This document shows positions 5,226 through 13,198 of a stretch of 48,748 nucleotides of DNA, in pieces. The translations under genes were made by a program, and so were the position numbers. The notes beneath the pieces are model-generated. The model was not told where the DNA came from, searched no databases, and worked only from the letters and a program-made list of their open reading frames with translations. How positions within the stretch are numbered: the first letter of the stretch is position 1; each line of letters opens with the position of its first letter. The DNA comes from Alphaproteobacteria bacterium (lineage in GTDB: Bacteria; Pseudomonadota; Alphaproteobacteria; Micropepsales; Micropepsaceae). Location of the stretch: positions 1-48,748 of the forward strand of contig JABFRX010000044.1 of NCBI GenBank assembly GCA_013140995.1. The letters run 5' to 3'.

Positions 5226-5864
5226 TCATGACACACCGCGCGAGCGGCCATGCTTCGAGGCGATCATAAGCATGGGTTCCGTGCCGTCGTCGTCGGTTAT
5301 GTCGATCGCAAAGCCGCTCTCCGTGAGCGCAGCGATCACCTCGGGAATGCAACGGAAGCGGTAAACCTCCGACGGGAACGACCGCACCGCGGCTTCATCG
5401 GCGTTGGTTCGAAAGACCAGGGCGAAGCGTCCGCCTGGCTTCAGCACGCGTGCGATCTCCTGCAACGAGGCGTCGAGATTTTCCCAGAAGTAGACGACAT
5501 GGACGCACAGCGCCTTGTCGAACGCGTTATCGGCGAACGGCAACGCGTCGGCGCGGGCGATCACGACATCGACCCTATGCGCTTTCACGAGCCCTTGGTT
5601 CCGCTCAACCGCGATCTCGGTCATAAGTGCGGAAGGATCAGCGCCCACCACGCGTCCTTTCGAGGCACGCGCCGCCAAGACCGCCAAGCCCCGCCCGGGT
5701 CCGCAACCGACGTCAAGGATGTGATCGTTAAGCTGGACATCAAGCCCATCGATCGCGCGCTTGTTGACGGCAAACGTTTCGTGCGCCATGACGAAGGCGA
5801 CGAAGCGTCCGAGCAGCCCGCTCGCGTGCCGTGCTTGCTCGGCGATTAAGCGCGGTCTACGCAT
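5226..5864 (-). CDS. class I SAM-dependent methyltransferase
   Basis: A 212-aa methyltransferase. Motif I is DVGCGPGRG (residues 51-59), followed by an acidic residue after the next strand (VGAD), RADALPFADNAFD (motif II/III), and the post-motif ARVLKPGGRFALVF. The ATG at 5864 is preferred because further upstream the frame runs through the preceding hydroxylase gene; the resulting overlap is 8 bp. It is the last gene of the three-gene minus-strand operon 7630 to 5226. Placement after two membrane hydroxylases suggests a lipid or quinone-like substrate, but nothing in the sequence proves that. Confidence 0.88.
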   Translation of the reverse strand: MRRPRLIAEQARHASGLLGRFVAFVMAHETFAVNKRAIDGLDVQLNDHILDVGCGPGRGLAVLAARASKGRVVGADPSALMTEIAVERNQGLVKAHRVDVVIARADALPFADNAFDKALCVHVVYFWENLDASLQEIARVLKPGGRFALVFRTNADEAAVRSFPSEVYRFRCIPEVIAALTESGFAIDITDDDGTEPMLMIASKHGRSRGVS

Positions 5865-6648
5865 TGCCCGCCTCGTACGGTTCGGCAAGGCGCGCGCACT
5901 TGGCAACGTCGGCGACACGCGCTTGATAATCCGGATGCTCCGTTCCCATCGCGCGGTCCCACCACGAAAAATAGAGACCGAAATTGCTGCGCGAATCCTG
6001 GTGATGCAGGTCGTGGTGCGTCGTGGTGTTGAGCCAGCCGAAGAGCTGCGATGGCCGGCCCGACACCGGCGACAGCTCGACGCCGGCATGTCCCATGACG
6101 TTGCGCAGGATCTGCCACGTCACGAACGTGAACACTGCGAGATCGTGCATTGGCACGAACGCGAGCCAGAGGGGTACGAACGCGACCATGACGATGGCTT
6201 CGGGCACGTCGAACGCATAGGCGCTCCAGGGCGTGGGCGTCTTGGATTTGTGATGCGTTCGGTGGAACAGCCGGAAGAGGCGCGGACGATGCATCGCCCG
6301 ATGCGTCCAATAGAAGTATGCGTCGTGGGCGACGATCATTGCGAGCAGAGTGAGCGCGAAATAGCTCCAGCCTCGAACCGCGAAGTCTTGGTAGACGGTC
6401 AGCCAGCCGGACTTGGCGGCGAGATACGTGCCAAAGCCGGTGCTCGAAAAGACCAACGTTGTGCGTAGAGATGTGAAAATCTCGCGGCGATAGTCGCTCG
6501 CGCCGGCGGCGCGCGCCTGGATCTTGCGCGCATTGAAGTAAACACTCCAAAACGCCCAGACGATGAGGCTCACGAGGGCGGCGGTGACGAGGTACCGGCC
6601 GATCTCAACGGAAACAATGATCGGAAAGACCGTACTGAATTCGCTCAT
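5857..6648 (-). CDS. sterol desaturase/fatty acid hydroxylase family protein
   Basis: A 263-aa integral membrane di-iron enzyme. The three His clusters are HDAYFYWTHRAMH, HRTHH and HHDLHH, with the extra His in the NVMGHAG segment: the eight-histidine pattern of the ERG3/SUR2 hydroxylase superfamily. About four hydrophobic segments precede and separate the boxes. Such enzymes use O2 to hydroxylate or desaturate sterol, carotenoid, sphingolipid or ornithine-lipid chains. It lies 61 bp downstream of a second, distinct member and overlaps the methyltransferase, so the three probably act on one membrane lipid. The substrate is unknown. Confidence 0.9.
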   Translation of the reverse strand: MSEFSTVFPIIVSVEIGRYLVTAALVSLIVWAFWSVYFNARKIQARAAGASDYRREIFTSLRTTLVFSSTGFGTYLAAKSGWLTVYQDFAVRGWSYFALTLLAMIVAHDAYFYWTHRAMHRPRLFRLFHRTHHKSKTPTPWSAYAFDVPEAIVMVAFVPLWLAFVPMHDLAVFTFVTWQILRNVMGHAGVELSPVSGRPSQLFGWLNTTTHHDLHHQDSRSNFGLYFSWWDRAMGTEHPDYQARVADVAKCARLAEPYEAGNA

Positions 6649-6709
6649 GATTTTGCTCCAAAGTTTTATATGGGTGAGGTGTTGAGAGCTGAGGGATCGC
6701 GTTCATCGG

Positions 6710-7630
6710 CTACTCCGCCAACGCCGCGCGGCGACGGCGGCGCAGGTGCCACATCAGCAGCGGCCACAGGAGGGGCGACACGAGTTGGGCCGGAATATTC
6801 GTTGGGATCGGGTCGGGCACGATGCCGACTTCGTCGAGCGGCTCGTCCAGCGGATGGCGAAACGTACCGAACACGTGATCGAACAGCATCGTGAGCGGCG
6901 AGAAATTGCAGGCGCCGTTTGTGTAGTCCTTGGTGTGATGTAGCCAATGGGTTTTCTGCGTCGGAAACATCGCGTGGACGAAACGCGGCAGGTTCTGTGC
7001 AAGATTGGAATGATTGAGACTGCCGCCGAACGTCATGAGCGCGGCGATCCAGAGCATCACGCCGGCGGGCGCGCCCAACACGACGAGCGGCGAATAGACA
7101 ACGAGGGCGCGGATCGTCGCTTCGAGAAAATGTAGCCGAATGCCTTTGAACACCGTCATGCGATCGATGTTGTGGTGCAGCGCATGGATCGGCCACGCGA
7201 TCGCCCAAGCGTGATAGGCGCGATGCTTCCAATAATCGAAGAAGTCGACGATCAGGACAGCGACCAGAATTTGTCCCCAAAGCGGCCAAGCGGAGGGCCA
7301 GAGTCCGAGGTTGCCCTGCGCCGCAAGTTTGCCACCGGCAATCGCGAATAGGACCATCAGCGCGCTGCGGCCGAGCCCGTCGCCGAACACGTTGCCCACG
7401 CCGTGGACGACATCGTTGACGACCTGCCCGTCGCTCGTCCAGAGCCACTCCGGCCTGTCAGGAAGCACGAGTTCGAGAGTGGCGATCACCGCCATGTTGA
7501 CGACGGTCAGCGCGAGCAAGGTCAGCCCGGGATCGAAGCCCGCGCAAAGGGCGCGGTCGAATGCGACCAACTGACCGATGAGGATGGCCGGCCAAGTCAA
7601 CCAGGCGAGGATCGATTTGATGCTAACCAC
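6710..7630 (-). CDS. sterol desaturase/fatty acid hydroxylase family protein (longer paralogue)
   Basis: A 306-aa membrane protein with a longer N-terminal hydrophobic region (residues about 8-100). The His clusters are DYWKHRAYH, HALHH and HWLHHTKD, with NHSN between them. It differs clearly from its 263-aa neighbour and is not a recent duplicate. It is first in the operon 7630 to 5226, and its upstream region carries three ~20-bp direct repeats that could be AraC-family operators. The Arg-rich C-terminus (RRRRR) would lie in the cytoplasm. Likely an O2-dependent lipid hydroxylase; substrate not determinable. Confidence 0.9.
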   Translation of the reverse strand: MVSIKSILAWLTWPAILIGQLVAFDRALCAGFDPGLTLLALTVVNMAVIATLELVLPDRPEWLWTSDGQVVNDVVHGVGNVFGDGLGRSALMVLFAIAGGKLAAQGNLGLWPSAWPLWGQILVAVLIVDFFDYWKHRAYHAWAIAWPIHALHHNIDRMTVFKGIRLHFLEATIRALVVYSPLVVLGAPAGVMLWIAALMTFGGSLNHSNLAQNLPRFVHAMFPTQKTHWLHHTKDYTNGACNFSPLTMLFDHVFGTFRHPLDEPLDEVGIVPDPIPTNIPAQLVSPLLWPLLMWHLRRRRRAALAE

Positions 7631-7693
7631 GGATCGCTCCAGCGCCGGGCTATTCCGGCGTCGAGAGATTTGATCCGTGTTCGGGCAGGCTGA

Positions 7694-7754
7694 CTCGCCG
7701 CCTTCGAAAAGCGGCTAGCCGATTCCGAAATGGGCTCGCCGAATCTGAAAAAGC
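7694..7754 (-). promoter_or_regulatory. three ~20-bp direct repeats upstream of the hydroxylase operon
   Basis: Three consecutive units at 7694-7714, 7715-7734 and 7735-7754 share CT(C/A)GCCG, then a variable pair, then TC(C/T/G)(G/A)AAA on the plus strand, with 20-21 bp periodicity (two helical turns). They lie 64-124 bp upstream of the ATG at 7630. AraC-family activators typically bind tandem same-face repeats with such spacing, and an AraC-type gene ends at 7763, immediately next to them. Confidence 0.6.
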
Positions 7755-7762
7755 CTTTCAGA

Positions 7763-8863
7763 TCAAGGCGGCGTTTCTGTTGGGACTGCCAGCTGATCTA
7801 GCGCGTTCGCGCGAAACTCGGACGGTGTCAGGCCAGTCTCGGCCTTGAAGGCGCGGTTGAAGGGCCCGAGGGATTGGAAGCCGGCGTCGAGCCCAATGGT
7901 CGAGATGGGAACGTCGCGCTGCCCTGGGTCGGATAGAGATTGCTTGGCGTCGACAAGGCGCCACTGGTTAAGGAAGGCGCTGAAGTTGCGATGACCGAGC
8001 TGCTGGTTGATTAGCCGGCGCAATTTGTATTCGGGTACACTCAGCTTGAGCGCGAGCGCCGTAATCGTGAGGGCTTCCTCCCGGTAGACGCGCTCCTCGT
8101 GCATGAGGCGCTCAAGCTGGTGTGCGACCTTCTCATCTTCGCCGGAACGCGCCGGCGCTGCTTCTTGCGGAGGAGGCATCGGCCGTGGTTCGGCCGCTGG
8201 TGCGAAGAGGTCGAGGTCCGCTTGCAGCAGCGCGCCTATACCTGCCAGGCCTAAGATAAAGAGAATCGCCGCCGCCAGCGGCGACAGCGCATCGGCGGGG
8301 CGCCACAGGATTTCGGATGTCTGCACCGCGATGACGGACACGGCATAGAGCGCCGCGGCGGCCAGGATCGGGCCCCGCAGACGGCGCCGTGACTCGACGA
8401 GGTCGTTACGCCGTCCGCTCCAGATGACGATCAAGACATGCACCATAAGGACGGCGCCGACGAGATTGTGCGCGAGAAATAGTCCTTTCGCCGCCGCGCC
8501 ATTCGCGAGCATCGCCCCGGTACCGATCGTGAGCAGAAGCGCCGCCGGTGCGAAACGCACAGGTTCAAGGCGGGGGCGGTCGCCGAACAGTTCCGTCGCA
8601 AAGGCCCAGAAAAGACCGGCCCCCATAAAGGAGAAAGCCCAAACCAGAGGCCGGGCAAGGCCGAGCGCTTCGTTGATGGCAGGATGCTGCGTCAACGTGT
8701 GCGCCGCCGCGGCAAGGCAAAACAGCACGCCCGTTACGCGCGCCGGCGTGAATGGCGGGCGCGCGATCGCGATTGCGAGTCCGACGAAGGCACCGATGGC
8801 GCCGCCGCGCATCAAGACTTCCAGGATGGATGGGTCTCGCAAGAGGGTTAGGGCTGAGGGCAT
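7763..8863 (-). CDS. membrane-anchored AraC family transcriptional regulator
   Basis: A 366-aa protein in two parts. Residues 1-220 contain about seven hydrophobic segments, an integral membrane sensor-like region. Residues about 245-355 form an AraC/XylS DNA-binding domain: LTITALALKLSVPEYKLRRLINQQLG is the first helix-turn-helix, and the second ends in the family signature FQSLGPFNRAFKAETGLTPSEFR. This layout is known in regulators such as those annotated AraC with 7TM-like domains. It reads in the same direction as the hydroxylase operon and stops 9 bp before the direct repeats, so local control of that operon is the natural inference. The signal sensed is unknown. Confidence 0.88.
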   Translation of the reverse strand: MPSALTLLRDPSILEVLMRGGAIGAFVGLAIAIARPPFTPARVTGVLFCLAAAAHTLTQHPAINEALGLARPLVWAFSFMGAGLFWAFATELFGDRPRLEPVRFAPAALLLTIGTGAMLANGAAAKGLFLAHNLVGAVLMVHVLIVIWSGRRNDLVESRRRLRGPILAAAALYAVSVIAVQTSEILWRPADALSPLAAAILFILGLAGIGALLQADLDLFAPAAEPRPMPPPQEAAPARSGEDEKVAHQLERLMHEERVYREEALTITALALKLSVPEYKLRRLINQQLGHRNFSAFLNQWRLVDAKQSLSDPGQRDVPISTIGLDAGFQSLGPFNRAFKAETGLTPSEFRANALDQLAVPTETPP

Positions 8864-8877
8864 CTGAATCGATTCAT

Positions 8878-8898
8878 CGTGCAGACAAACACTGCACG
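8878..8898. promoter_or_regulatory. perfect 7-7-7 inverted repeat CGTGCAG/CTGCACG
   Basis: CGTGCAG (8878-8884) and CTGCACG (8892-8898) are exact reverse complements around a 7-bp AT-rich spacer. It sits 15 bp upstream of the AraC-type start and 24 bp downstream of the methyltransferase stop. It could be an operator for the regulator gene or a hairpin ending the upstream operon; no T-run follows on the minus strand. Confidence 0.4.
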
Positions 8899-8921
8899 CT
8901 TCAGAAGTCCACGCCTCCCGA

Positions 8922-9737
8922 TCAGCGCTTCGTCACGACCACCTCGAGATATTCGCTGGGCACGATCAGCGTCTCCTTACCGCCGCGATTCATGCGGGTG
9001 AGCAGATCGACAAGGTCCGCCTGCAGCGCGCTTTGGCCGTTGGCATCGAGCGCGGCGAATGCGCGGTTCGTGGGGCCGTAATAGGTTTTGAAGACGCTGA
9101 GCCAGTGATCGACCGACTTGTAGCGGAAGTTGAAGATCTGCTTTGTCGCCTTCACGTCATGACCGGGAAAGAGATCGGCGAGGTGAGCCTGTGTGCCCCA
9201 GAGAGCCGGCGACCTGACGCCAGGCGGTGGCGGCACGTGCTTGCCGATTGTCTTGAACAGCTGACCGATGAAGCCGTCCGGCGTCCAGTTGGCGAGGCCG
9301 ATGCGGCCGCCCTTGCGGCAGACACGCGCGAGTTCTGCGCCCGATTTCTCATGGTTGGGCGTGAACATGACGCCGAATGTGGAGAGCACGAGGTCGAAGC
9401 TGGCATCTGCGAAAGGCAGCGCCTCGGCGTCGGCTTCCTGGAACGTGATGTCCAGGCGCTCGGCGTTTGCGCGCTCGCGGGCGCGCTCCAAAAGCGCGCC
9501 GACATAGTCCGTCGATGTCACATGTGCGAACTGGCGCGCCGCTGCGAGCGAGGCGTTGCCGTTGCCTGCGGCAACGTCAAGCACGCGCTCCCCAGCGCGG
9601 ATGTCGACGGCATCGCAGAGACGTTCGCCGACGAGCTGCAGCGTGGTGCCGACGACAGCGTAGTCGCCGGCGGCCCAGGTGGCCTGCTGGCGCTGCTTGA
9701 TCGCGGTGAAGTCGGGTGCGGGTGATGGTGTGGTCAT
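8922..9737 (-). CDS. class I SAM-dependent methyltransferase (UbiE/Methyltransf_11 type)
   Basis: A 271-aa methyltransferase. Motif I is VLDVAAGNGN (residues 52-61), followed by TSTDY as the acidic SAM-ribose strand, EADAEALPFADASFD (motif II) and ARVCRKGGRIGLANW. The substrate-binding C-terminus (about residues 165-271) is longer than in the methyltransferase at 5226. The ATG at 9737 is chosen because it overlaps the DUF4395 stop as ATGA; any longer frame would run through that gene. It is the last gene of the ArsR-rhodanese operon. Small-molecule or lipid methylation is likely; substrate unknown. Confidence 0.88.
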   Translation of the reverse strand: MTTPSPAPDFTAIKQRQQATWAAGDYAVVGTTLQLVGERLCDAVDIRAGERVLDVAAGNGNASLAAARQFAHVTSTDYVGALLERARERANAERLDITFQEADAEALPFADASFDLVLSTFGVMFTPNHEKSGAELARVCRKGGRIGLANWTPDGFIGQLFKTIGKHVPPPPGVRSPALWGTQAHLADLFPGHDVKATKQIFNFRYKSVDHWLSVFKTYYGPTNRAFAALDANGQSALQADLVDLLTRMNRGGKETLIVPSEYLEVVVTKR

Positions 9738-10216
9738 GATGCGATTCCTTGTGGGCGGCGGGCGAAGAAGTTGAAAATAATCGACGCGATGCAGATGTCG
9801 GTCGTACTGACGAGTGCAGCTACGCCGACAAACATCGCACCGAGTACATAGCCCGCGGTCACTTGACCGCTGGAGAAGAGAAGGGCGGTTGCGATCAGCC
9901 AAGCAGTGGCGATCCCGCAAGCGAACCGACGCGGCGCGCGGTTGGGCGGCAATGGCCGCTTTCCCACCAAAAACCTGATCCCGTAATTGTAGATCAGATC
10001 GAAAGGATGAAACGGCAGTACCGCGCCCAAGAAGGCGGTGCCTGCCAACGCAAAGAGTATCCAAGGCGAGGCCAGAGCCGTGCCGACAGCCGCGAACGTT
10101 CCGCACAGTACGGGTGACCAACGCAGCCACGGCGCTATCTCGGCGAGCCACGCCTCATCGACGTTGAATCCCTGTTCGTGCAGCCGCTGAACTGTGACCG
10201 GAGAAATCGTCGTCAT
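9734..10216 (-). CDS. DUF4395 family membrane protein
   Basis: A 160-aa protein with about four hydrophobic segments. The motif FHPFDLIYNYGIRFLVGKRPLPPNRAPRRFAC after the second is characteristic of DUF4395. The function is unknown. The family is often seen next to thioredoxin, rhodanese or sulfur genes, as here behind the ArsR-rhodanese protein with a 21-bp gap. Its end overlaps the methyltransferase start by 4 bp. Residues IYNYG and the RPLPPN loop are likely cytoplasmic. Confidence 0.8.
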   Translation of the reverse strand: MTTISPVTVQRLHEQGFNVDEAWLAEIAPWLRWSPVLCGTFAAVGTALASPWILFALAGTAFLGAVLPFHPFDLIYNYGIRFLVGKRPLPPNRAPRRFACGIATAWLIATALLFSSGQVTAGYVLGAMFVGVAALVSTTDICIASIIFNFFARRPQGIAS

Positions 10217-10237
10217 TGTTGTACCTCCCTGCTTGGT

Positions 10238-10936
10238 TTATCCGTCGGCGCGACCAGCCGGGCCGCTTTCGATGGGCAGGCCGTGGGCCGCCCATTCCGG
10301 AAATCCGTCTTCGAACCGGCGAATCTTGAAGCCGCGCTCGCGCAGAAGCGCGACCGCTTCAAAGGAAAGAACGCAGTACGGACCGCGACAATACGAAACG
10401 ATCTCGCGCCCACGTGGAAGTTGCGCGAGGCGTCGCTCAAGGGCTTTGAGAGGGATATTGATGGCCCCCGGCAAATGGCCGAGCGCAAATTCATCTTCAG
10501 GCCGCACGTCAAGAAGCGTTACCGACTTCTCACGCAAGCGTTTCACGAGTTCGGTCCGCGACACGGGTTCGAGTGCATCGCGCCCGTGGAAGTATTGCGC
10601 GATGACCTGCTGCGCTTCCGCGACATTCGTTTCGGCAACCCGCCGCAGTGCTGCCAGAAGATCGATCACCGATTTATCGGTCAGACGATAGAGGACGTTC
10701 TTGCCGTCGCGCCGTGAGGCGACGAGACCCGCGCGGCGCAGCAGCAAGAGATGCTGCGAGGTGTTAGCGATAGAGAGCCCGGCAACGGCGGCAAGCGCCT
10801 CAACCGGCCGCTCGCCTTGCCCCACGTGCTCCAAAAGGTTCAGCCGGTGGCCGCTTGCCAATGCCTTGGCGACGATGGCGAACGCGTCGTAGAGCACTGC
10901 TTTGGGGTTTCGGGTTGACATTGTTGGGTTAGTCAC
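10238..10936 (-). CDS. ArsR-type HTH regulator fused to a rhodanese domain
   Basis: A 232-aa two-domain protein. Residues 10-100 form an ArsR winged helix (VEALAAVAGLSIANTSQHLL as recognition helices, GLVASRRDGKNVLYRL as the wing). Residues 125-222 form a rhodanese domain with LLDVRPEDEFALGHLPGAINIP and active loop CRGPYC, catalytic Cys183 and a second Cys188. The fusion suggests that sulfur transfer or a persulfide/disulfide between these cysteines tunes DNA binding. It is divergent from the 10998 operon, and a perfect palindrome lies between the two starts. The best guess is a repressor of both operons that responds to reactive sulfur or thiol-binding agents. Confidence 0.88.
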   Translation of the reverse strand: MTNPTMSTRNPKAVLYDAFAIVAKALASGHRLNLLEHVGQGERPVEALAAVAGLSIANTSQHLLLLRRAGLVASRRDGKNVLYRLTDKSVIDLLAALRRVAETNVAEAQQVIAQYFHGRDALEPVSRTELVKRLREKSVTLLDVRPEDEFALGHLPGAINIPLKALERRLAQLPRGREIVSYCRGPYCVLSFEAVALLRERGFKIRRFEDGFPEWAAHGLPIESGPAGRADG

Positions 10937-10997: not shown

Positions 10998-11843
10998 ATG
11001 CGTGACTTTCTTCTGGGTAACGAGCCCGCAATCCGCCTGGCGGCATTCAGCAGTGTGCTTGCGGGCGTCGCACTACTTGAAGCTATCTTTCCGCGTCGCG
11101 TGCGGTCAGTAAGCCGATGGATTCGTTGGACGAACAATTTGGGGATGATGTTCCTGAGCACAGGACTTGTGCGCGTCGTGTTTCCGACAGCGGCAATCGG
11201 CGTTGCCCTTGCTATTGAGGGTAGCGGAATCGGACTCATTCCGTGGCTGGGTCTGCCCGACTTTGCCGGTGTCATCGCCGCCGTCGTGATCCTCGACCTT
11301 GCGATCTATCTTCAACACGTGATGTTGCACGCCGTTCCGCTGCTGTGGCGCTTTCATCGCATGCACCACGCCGATCTCGACTTCGATGTCACCACGGGCG
11401 GGCGGTTTCATCCCCTCGAAATAGCGGTGTCGATGGTCATCAAGGTTGCGGTTATCACCGCACTCGGCGCACCGGTCGTTGCCGTTCTCATCTTCGAAGT
11501 GCTGCTGAATGCAACATCGATGTTCAACCACGCGAACTGGCGGCTCCCAGCCGGCGTTGATACCGCGCTTCGCCGGTTCGTCGTCACACCGGATATGCAC
11601 CGGGTCCATCACTCGATCGAACCGGGCGAGACGAATAGCAATTTCGGCTTCAATCTTCCGTGGTGGGATTTTCTCTTTGGCACTTACCGCGCGCAGCCGG
11701 CGGCCGGGCATGACGCCATGACCATCGGCATCGTGCAATTCAGACAGCCTCGCGATCTCTGGCTTGATCGCATGCTGATCCAGCCGCTTCGCGACGACGC
11801 AGGTCCGTATCCTGTGGGCCGCCGAGAGGATGCATCGTCGTGA
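10998..11843 (+). CDS. sterol desaturase/fatty acid hydroxylase family protein (third member)
   Basis: A 281-aa membrane di-iron enzyme. The His boxes are LQHVMLH, HRMHH and MHRVHHS, plus an FNHANW segment that supplies a further ligand. About five hydrophobic stretches surround them. In the first box, Asp99 in ILDLAIY and the spacing to LQHVMLH fit the subgroup that includes small bacterial C-5 desaturase-like proteins. It heads a plus-strand operon with a rhodanese-fused membrane protein, and its GTGA junction overlaps the next gene by 4 bp. It is the third member of this superfamily within 6 kb. Confidence 0.9.
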   Translation: MRDFLLGNEPAIRLAAFSSVLAGVALLEAIFPRRVRSVSRWIRWTNNLGMMFLSTGLVRVVFPTAAIGVALAIEGSGIGLIPWLGLPDFAGVIAAVVILDLAIYLQHVMLHAVPLLWRFHRMHHADLDFDVTTGGRFHPLEIAVSMVIKVAVITALGAPVVAVLIFEVLLNATSMFNHANWRLPAGVDTALRRFVVTPDMHRVHHSIEPGETNSNFGFNLPWWDFLFGTYRAQPAAGHDAMTIGIVQFRQPRDLWLDRMLIQPLRDDAGPYPVGRREDASS

Positions 11844-12823
11844 AAAGGTCTTTGGCTGCACGATTGGTCTTAGGCGCCGCCCTGCTTGCCGCGGTCACCG
11901 CCGCGTTCCTTTTGCGCGAACAGTTCAATTTCGGCGCGGTCACGGCCATCGTCGATAGCCTCGGAATTTGGGCGCCGATTTTCTTTGTGCTTCTGTTTGG
12001 CGTTGCGGCCGTGGTCTTTTTCCCTGGTGCGGTGTTCGGTCTTGCTGGCGGTGCGTTGTTCGGGCCGTTCTGGGGCACCGCGTTGAACGTCGTCGGCGGC
12101 ACGTTCGGAGCGATTCTTGCGTTCCTCATCGCTCGGTACGCCGCGTCCGAATGGATGGCGCAGCGGACGGGCGGCAAACTCAAAGAGTTGATCGCAGGTG
12201 TCGAAAGCGAGGGCTGGCGCTTCGTCGCACTGATCCGCCTTGTGCCGATTTTTCCCTACAATCTCACGAACTACACGCTTGGCCTCACGCGCATCTCGTT
12301 TGTTCAATACGTCGCTGCGACCTTTGTCTGCATGATCCCGGGTAGCGCGGCTTACGCCTGGCTTGGCTTTGCCGGGCGCAGCGCCACCACAGGCGATCGG
12401 GACACGATTTGGTACGGATTGCTCGGGTTGGCGGCACTGGCGATCATCGCATTCTTGCCGCGCCTGTTGAAGCGCCTGCGGCCGGAAAGCGACAAGGGTG
12501 AATGCTGGATGGACGTGACCGAACTTTCGGCTGCGCTGCAGCGCGCCGACGAGCCGATTGTCATTGATGTTCGCGAACCCGACGAGTTCGTGGGCGGCCT
12601 TGGCCACATCCCCGACGCCGTCAACATACCGTTGGGCGCTATCATTGCTGATCCAAATCAATTCGCGCGCGGCAAGGAGGGCCTATTGGTTCTCGTCTGC
12701 CGGACCGATCGGCGTTCGGCTCGTGCCGCTGACGCGGTGAGGAATGTGGGGCTTCGCAGTGTGCGGGTTCTACGTGGCGGCATGGAACGTTGGAACGATC
12801 TCGGGATGCCGGTACTGCACTGA
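11840..12823 (+). CDS. TVP38/TMEM64 (DedA-like) membrane protein fused to rhodanese
   Basis: A 327-aa fusion. Residues 1-215 match the TVP38/TMEM64 (SNARE-associated) family: several membrane segments, the FFPGAVFGLAGGALFGPFWG re-entrant motif, and a conserved RLVPIFPYNLTNYTLGLTRI segment. Residues about 225-325 form a rhodanese domain (VIDVREPDEFVGGLGHIPDAVNIP, active-site loop CRTDRRS with Cys287). TVP38/DedA proteins are implicated in lipid scrambling or transport. The rhodanese part would sit in the cytoplasm as a persulfide-carrying module. The GTG start at 11840 overlaps the upstream stop. Stand-alone TVP38 proteins are about 220 aa, so the fusion is real and not read-through. Confidence 0.88.
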   Translation: MKRSLAARLVLGAALLAAVTAAFLLREQFNFGAVTAIVDSLGIWAPIFFVLLFGVAAVVFFPGAVFGLAGGALFGPFWGTALNVVGGTFGAILAFLIARYAASEWMAQRTGGKLKELIAGVESEGWRFVALIRLVPIFPYNLTNYTLGLTRISFVQYVAATFVCMIPGSAAYAWLGFAGRSATTGDRDTIWYGLLGLAALAIIAFLPRLLKRLRPESDKGECWMDVTELSAALQRADEPIVIDVREPDEFVGGLGHIPDAVNIPLGAIIADPNQFARGKEGLLVLVCRTDRRSARAADAVRNVGLRSVRVLRGGMERWNDLGMPVLH

Positions 12824-12844
12824 TACGAGGAGCCGACAAGAGCG

Positions 12845-13198
12845 ATGAAGAGTCTCCTGATCTTAAATGACCCGCCGTACGGCACCGAGCGTTGTTACAA
12901 CGCGCTGCGCTTGGCGCACGCACTCGCCAAACAAGCGCCGGACGCCGAAATCACGATCTTCCTCATGGCGGACGCGGTCACAGCCGCCCGAAAAGGTCAG
13001 AAGACGCCTGAGGGTTATTACAATCTGGAGCGCATGCTCAAACGCGTTCTTCTCGGCAAGGGCCGCGTCCTTCTTTGCGGCACGTGCATGGATGCGCGCG
13101 GTATGATGGATGACGATATCACGGACGGCGCGCTCCGCAGCACGATGGACGAACTCGCAGTCATCACGACGTCGGCGGAGCGCGTGATGGTTTTCTAA
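12845..13198 (+). CDS. DsrE/DsrF-like sulfur relay family protein
   Basis: A 117-aa DsrE-fold protein. MKSLLILNDPPYG is the first strand with the usual loop, ITIFLMADAV the second, and LLCGTCMDARGM carries Cys78 and Cys81, the position of the active cysteine in this family. Cys17 is a further candidate. DsrE-like proteins accept and pass sulfane sulfur between carriers. It lies 21 bp after the rhodanese fusion and would be its natural partner in sulfur relay. Confidence 0.88.
   Translation: MKSLLILNDPPYGTERCYNALRLAHALAKQAPDAEITIFLMADAVTAARKGQKTPEGYYNLERMLKRVLLGKGRVLLCGTCMDARGMMDDDITDGALRSTMDELAVITTSAERVMVF

Follow-up and report, generated by a model that had tools for sequence, protein, structure and literature searches.

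Genes and repeats at the locus

The window (the whole stretch of 48,748 nt that was analysed) contains, on its minus strand, a gene for a regulator, an array of three direct repeats behind it, and an operon of two hydroxylase genes (H1 and H2) and a methyltransferase gene (MT). A third hydroxylase gene (H3) lies on the plus strand. The features are as follows.

7763-8863 (-): regulator with a predicted seven-helix membrane domain (residues 11-214), a linker and a C-terminal AraC-type DNA-binding domain (residues 243-357); PF12833, PF00165, AlphaFold2
7753-7769 (-): terminator-like hairpin with a T run directly behind the regulator stop codon; 1 found with 0.4 expected, a consensus match only
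7735-7751 (-): putative operator site 1 (promoter-distal), TTTTCAGATTCGGCGAG; position kept in orthologs L010 and L015-L017
7715-7731 (-): putative operator site 2, ATTTCGGAATCGGCTAG; the sole zero-mismatch match to TTTCNNAATCGGCKAGCC genome-wide
7694-7710 (-): putative operator site 3 (promoter-proximal), TTTTCGAAGGCGGCGAG; CGGCGAG kept in most relatives
6710-7630 (-): H1, OlsE-like membrane di-iron hydroxylase with a GTG start; PF04116, histidine boxes HRAYH, HALHH and HWLHH
5857-6648 (-): H2, second, divergent hydroxylase; PF04116, histidine boxes HRAMH, HRTHH and HHDLHH
5226-5864 (-): MT, class I SAM-dependent methyltransferase; Methyltransf_11, SAM motif ILDVGCGPGRG
10998-11843 (+): H3, third hydroxylase; PF04116

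The DNA-binding domain of the regulator matches PF12833 at 57.9 bits and PF00165 at 27.9 bits, both over the cutoff, and there are also profile matches to the DNA-binding domains of AraC, SoxS and Rob. The AlphaFold2 model (mean pLDDT 90.7) has seven long helices ahead of the DNA-binding domain, and both hydropathy and the model predict membrane helices and a DNA-binding domain in a single chain, as in transmembrane regulators (TTRs); these predictions agree with the membrane-anchored AraC-type regulator proposed in the first-pass annotation. The loops that join helices 1-2, 3-4 and 5-6 carry positive charge, so the positive-inside rule puts the DNA-binding domain on the cytoplasmic side. The 5-6 loop contains the motif DLVExRRRLR, which is invariant in 49 homologs. 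A fold search of the membrane part against solved structures gave no match at E<=0.001. Receptors and rhodopsins appeared only at E about 0.02-0.1 with a TM-score <=0.43 by query, and a GPCR/rhodopsin relationship was not accepted.

The three 17-nt repeats are spaced 21 and 20 nt apart and read TTTCrGAATCGGCKAGCC on the coding (minus) strand. With a TRF score of 60 they outrank every other tandem array in the window, and 38 of 51 positions match in the triple, compared to at most 32 in shuffles of the 132-nt spacer (0 of 1000 as good) and at most 31 in all other tiles of the window, among which the triple ranks first of 737. The array lies 3′ of the regulator gene and 5′ of the H1-H2-MT operon, about 60-120 nt from the operon start codon, with all elements on the minus strand; three repeats of 20-21 bp periodicity between an AraC regulator and an operon had been noted before and were found as described. 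The hairpin that follows the regulator gene suggests separate transcription of the operon, from its own promoter. A sigma-70 scan behind the array did not find a consensus promoter, and an Rfam search gave no match. The close orthologs (L009-L017) share an imperfect dyad, GCCGGAAyggTCCGGC, immediately 5′ of the ribosome-binding site; in the window it is at about 7641-7658. A hairpin in the 5′ leader was rejected as a feature of the family as a whole, since the enrichment was mild and not general (mean z -0.53, 13 of 76 below -1.64).

The enzymes of the operon

H1 and H2 belong to PF04116 by profile match and intact histidine boxes, and MT is a class I SAM methyltransferase by its Methyltransf_11 profile and glycine-rich SAM motif, in agreement with the earlier reading of two different membrane hydroxylases and a methyltransferase. 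The best NCBIfam matches of MT are DVU_1556-family and UbiE-type class I methyltransferases, which it resembles in the SAM-binding motif while scoring below their cutoffs (79.5 vs 155 and 73.5 vs 158). The MT start overlaps the H2 stop codon (ATGCGTAG); the true MT start is probably 5864, because the MRRPR start is conserved in L010, L011, L014, L015 and L017.

The first-pass annotation had also proposed a dedicated pathway, in which the three enzymes act in sequence to hydroxylate and then methylate one membrane lipid. H1 aligns over its full length with the model of the ornithine-lipid hydroxylase OlsE (NF052566, E 3.6e-46; residues 4-287 on model positions 2-283 of 293) and shares its histidine-box superfamily, which makes a lipid substrate plausible. 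In addition, the genome encodes an OlsB-type acyltransferase (PF13444, 110.6 bits), and the H1-H2-MT order is kept in L010. Against the pathway, H1 scores 157.8 bits, a third of the equivalog cutoff of 475, and its gene neighbourhood differs from that of OlsE; H2 reaches only 20.5 bits, both H2 and H3 being more distant from OlsE than H1, and MT has no specific family assignment. Moreover, close orthologs of the operon contain MT only (L011, L012, L014), H2 only (L016) or H2 and MT, which argues that the three enzymes are not an obligate set and work without each other. The proposal is only partly supported: H1 is OlsE-like, but the low score, the variable gene content and the position of H3 outside the unit lead us to lean against a single three-step pathway. 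It keeps a fair share of plausibility, but the repeats themselves do not point to it. The related count of three superfamily members within 6 kb is correct as such, but H3 is encoded on the opposite (plus) strand, in a separate divergent unit behind the ArsR-rhodanese, DUF4395 and second methyltransferase genes, and a matrix scan of the window found no tandem array near it.

Conservation of the array behind regulator relatives

Persistence of the repeats in relatives had been set beforehand as a test. Close orthologs carry the array after the regulator stop codon, with the site order unchanged. A matrix of 20 columns was trained only on the window and L009-L016, and the remaining loci (roughly 4-13 kb each) were searched on both strands, scoring whether the best tandem match of each locus fell at -150/+200 nt of the AraC stop codon. 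The best match was at this position in 67 of 77 held-out homologs (>=140 bits, without thinning), where 4% would be expected from locus length, and in none of the 7 AraC genes that are more distant. As controls, column-permuted matrices gave a mean of 4.9 of 84 (maximum 14) and the reversed matrix gave 4. Since many held-out loci are close Bradyrhizobium relatives, the set was thinned to regulators below an identity limit vs one another and vs the training set; at limits of 70, 60 and 50% identity, 26 of 33, 20 of 27 and 12 of 16 loci remained positive, compared to 1.3, 1.1 and 0.7 expected. The repeats were thus kept, which strongly supports the regulatory part of the first-pass reading. The tandem sites and their 20-21 bp geometry are conserved across alpha- and betaproteobacteria: the distance between adjacent sites is 20 or 21 bp in 78 of 87 pairs, and the variable position is G (CGGCGAG) in 56 of 76 promoter-proximal sites and T or C (CGGCTAG/CGGCCAG) in 52 of 60 penultimate sites. 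In the clade with beta-lactamase-fold hydrolases, the array is located within the 3′ end of the regulator gene. A top-scoring array at the AraC 3′ end was missing in ten members (L024, L028, L034, L035, L041, L044, L047, L059, L061 and L069), several of which retain the recognition helices.

Two further observations concern the form and number of the sites. At L074:6411-6470, L052, L078 and other Bradyrhizobium loci, the array centre forms a perfect palindrome of 20 bp (GAAATCGGCTAGCCGATTTC); the operator can be read there both as direct and as inverted repeats, and the direct-repeat geometry is not universal. At three Rhizobium loci (L024:9912, L036:9903 and L081:9910, minus strand), a second doublet lies about 3 kb from the regulator and may mark another target.

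Within the 4.0-Mb draft genome, matches to TTTCNNAATCGGCKAGCC with 0 or 1 mismatch occur only in the window array, and there are 11 two-mismatch matches compared to 5 for the reversed control. The rest of the window, with the regions ahead of H3 and of the regulator itself, contained no comparable doublet; because the window is in the training set, only this absence of other doublets is informative. The two-site pattern CGGCKAG-N13/14-CGGCKAG was discarded as too loose (9 matches in the control). A stricter two-site pattern in 64 genomes matched the window, its ortholog in G093 and one other place, and a strict class-wide pattern in 289 genomes matched the window alone, a result with low background that is uninformative on spread.

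The genes behind the array in relatives are of several kinds, including PF04116 hydroxylases, PF00144 beta-lactamase-fold hydrolases, PF01757 acyltransferases, HlyD adaptors and a methyltransferase alone. Since unrelated partners follow the same array, the array belongs to the regulator family and not to the enzymes. On the regulator tree, at least 12 partner changes are needed compared to 38.7 with shuffled labels, which shows that the pairs are inherited and sometimes exchanged. Among 88 relatives, mean identity to the window regulator is 60.6% in the DNA-binding domain, whose recognition regions are nearly invariant, and 28.3% in the membrane domain, which indicates that the reader and its site stay constant while sensor and target vary. 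A regulator paralog in the same genome (L002, C260; 40% identical) has related sites with an H2-like hydroxylase behind them. At L017:2924-4240, a single reading frame joins an H2-like hydroxylase to a DUF2147 domain, and L015:6957-8300 contains a reading frame of similar length.

A predicted operator for a seven-helix regulator

We hold with considerable confidence, from sequence comparison, that the triple repeat is the cognate operator through which the adjacent one-component AraC regulator, with its predicted seven-helix domain, would activate the H1-H2-MT operon, and the repeats are very probably its own docking site. The model that we infer covers binding, activation, ligand, promoter position and enzymatic substrate. 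One regulator monomer would occupy each unit of 20-21 bp (TTTCnGAAnCGGCKAG, about two helical turns) via its two helix-turn-helix motifs, so that two to three monomers would be aligned on one DNA face just upstream of the predicted operon promoter, with site 3 nearest to it. On sensing a membrane-associated signal through the seven-helix domain, the regulators bound to the tandem sites would recruit polymerase to this promoter and activate the single adjacent operon. The probable role of its two di-iron hydroxylases and its methyltransferase is to modify a lipid or another membrane substrate.

The regulator is probably an activator, an assignment that we make from two points only, the habit of the AraC family and the position of the sites. 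A reading in which the same operator serves a repressor (or an activator only on release), with the three sites blocking the promoter until the ligand arrives, is compatible with an array about 60-120 nt from the start codon, where steric block could occur, and with the failure of the sigma-70 scan to locate a consensus promoter. AraC/XylS regulators with direct-repeat half-sites next to a promoter are mostly activators, and the conserved CGGCGAG of the promoter-proximal site vs CGGCTAG/CGGCCAG of the penultimate site suits an ordered contact with polymerase; we therefore regard repression as unlikely. It is far less probable still that the AraC adjacency is incidental and the array binds a different regulator such as the nearby ArsR-rhodanese protein: an ArsR-type gene does lie 2 kb upstream and has orthologs near three AraC-MT loci, but the array tracks the AraC subfamily at many loci where no ArsR gene was found, and its sites are tandem direct repeats of AraC type, whereas ArsR-family operators are usually dyads. 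A neutral tandem duplication, or a repetitive element without regulatory role, is a barely credible account of the repeats: although the copies are tandem and only 71-76% alike, they retain sequence, spacing and order at loci whose AraC proteins are <50% identical, and the array is absent elsewhere in the genome.

The activator model with tandem operator sites resembles AraC at araI1/I2 and XylS at Pm, where a C-terminal domain with two helix-turn-helix motifs likewise reads direct-repeat sites about 21 bp apart beside the promoter of the adjacent operon. The present array differs in having three sites instead of two and in lying behind the regulator gene, and the regulator has a predicted seven-helix membrane sensor in place of a soluble ligand domain. 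In TfoS, ChiS, TcpP, ToxR and CadC, one or a few membrane helices are combined with a periplasmic sensor, whereas here the predicted seven-helix bundle is nearly the whole sensor. With these TTRs the regulator shares a one-component design, and it would likewise bind DNA while anchored in the membrane (PMC10269533, PMC11856585). Tandem-site AraC regulators and transmembrane regulators are each an established kind (PMC10269533, PMC11856585). Membrane-anchored regulators are widespread with few known targets (PMC10269533), and how they find their DNA is debated (PMC11856585). In the open-access literature, we found no description of the seven-helix AraC subfamily or its operator, and no link between a membrane AraC regulator and genes for sterol desaturases, fatty-acid hydroxylases or serine hydrolases; the sole match, on a nod-box fatty-acid hydroxylase of Mimosa symbionts, has no relation to this family.

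One operator model would predict, directly from sequence, the targets of numerous seven-helix AraC proteins that lack characterisation, in alpha- and betaproteobacteria and among them rhizobia. The swappable sensor/target pairs with a common operator also make the effect of operator-to-gene distance directly testable, in a soil bacterium that is harmless. Because the operator sits just past the regulator gene or within its 3′ end, insertion of the regulator into the membrane during translation might bring the operator to the membrane (transertion). We consider this speculative and rather improbable; if true, it would answer the search problem that membrane-anchored regulators face and account for an array that is fixed despite target exchange.

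Upstream of the operon, the ArsR-rhodanese (10238-10936), DUF4395, second methyltransferase and AraC genes form a co-oriented run with short gaps on the minus strand (8863-10936) and may be co-transcribed. Divergent from the ArsR-rhodanese gene, H3, a TVP38-like membrane protein with a rhodanese domain and a DsrE-like protein are encoded in a row on the plus strand (10998-13198), and H3 is 52% identical to another copy at C210. Orthologs of the ArsR-rhodanese protein (57-63% identical) are encoded near three of four AraC-MT loci (L011:11190-11828, L012:12615-13049 and L014:8303-8971), a co-occurrence that raises a possible link to sulfide/persulfide sensing.
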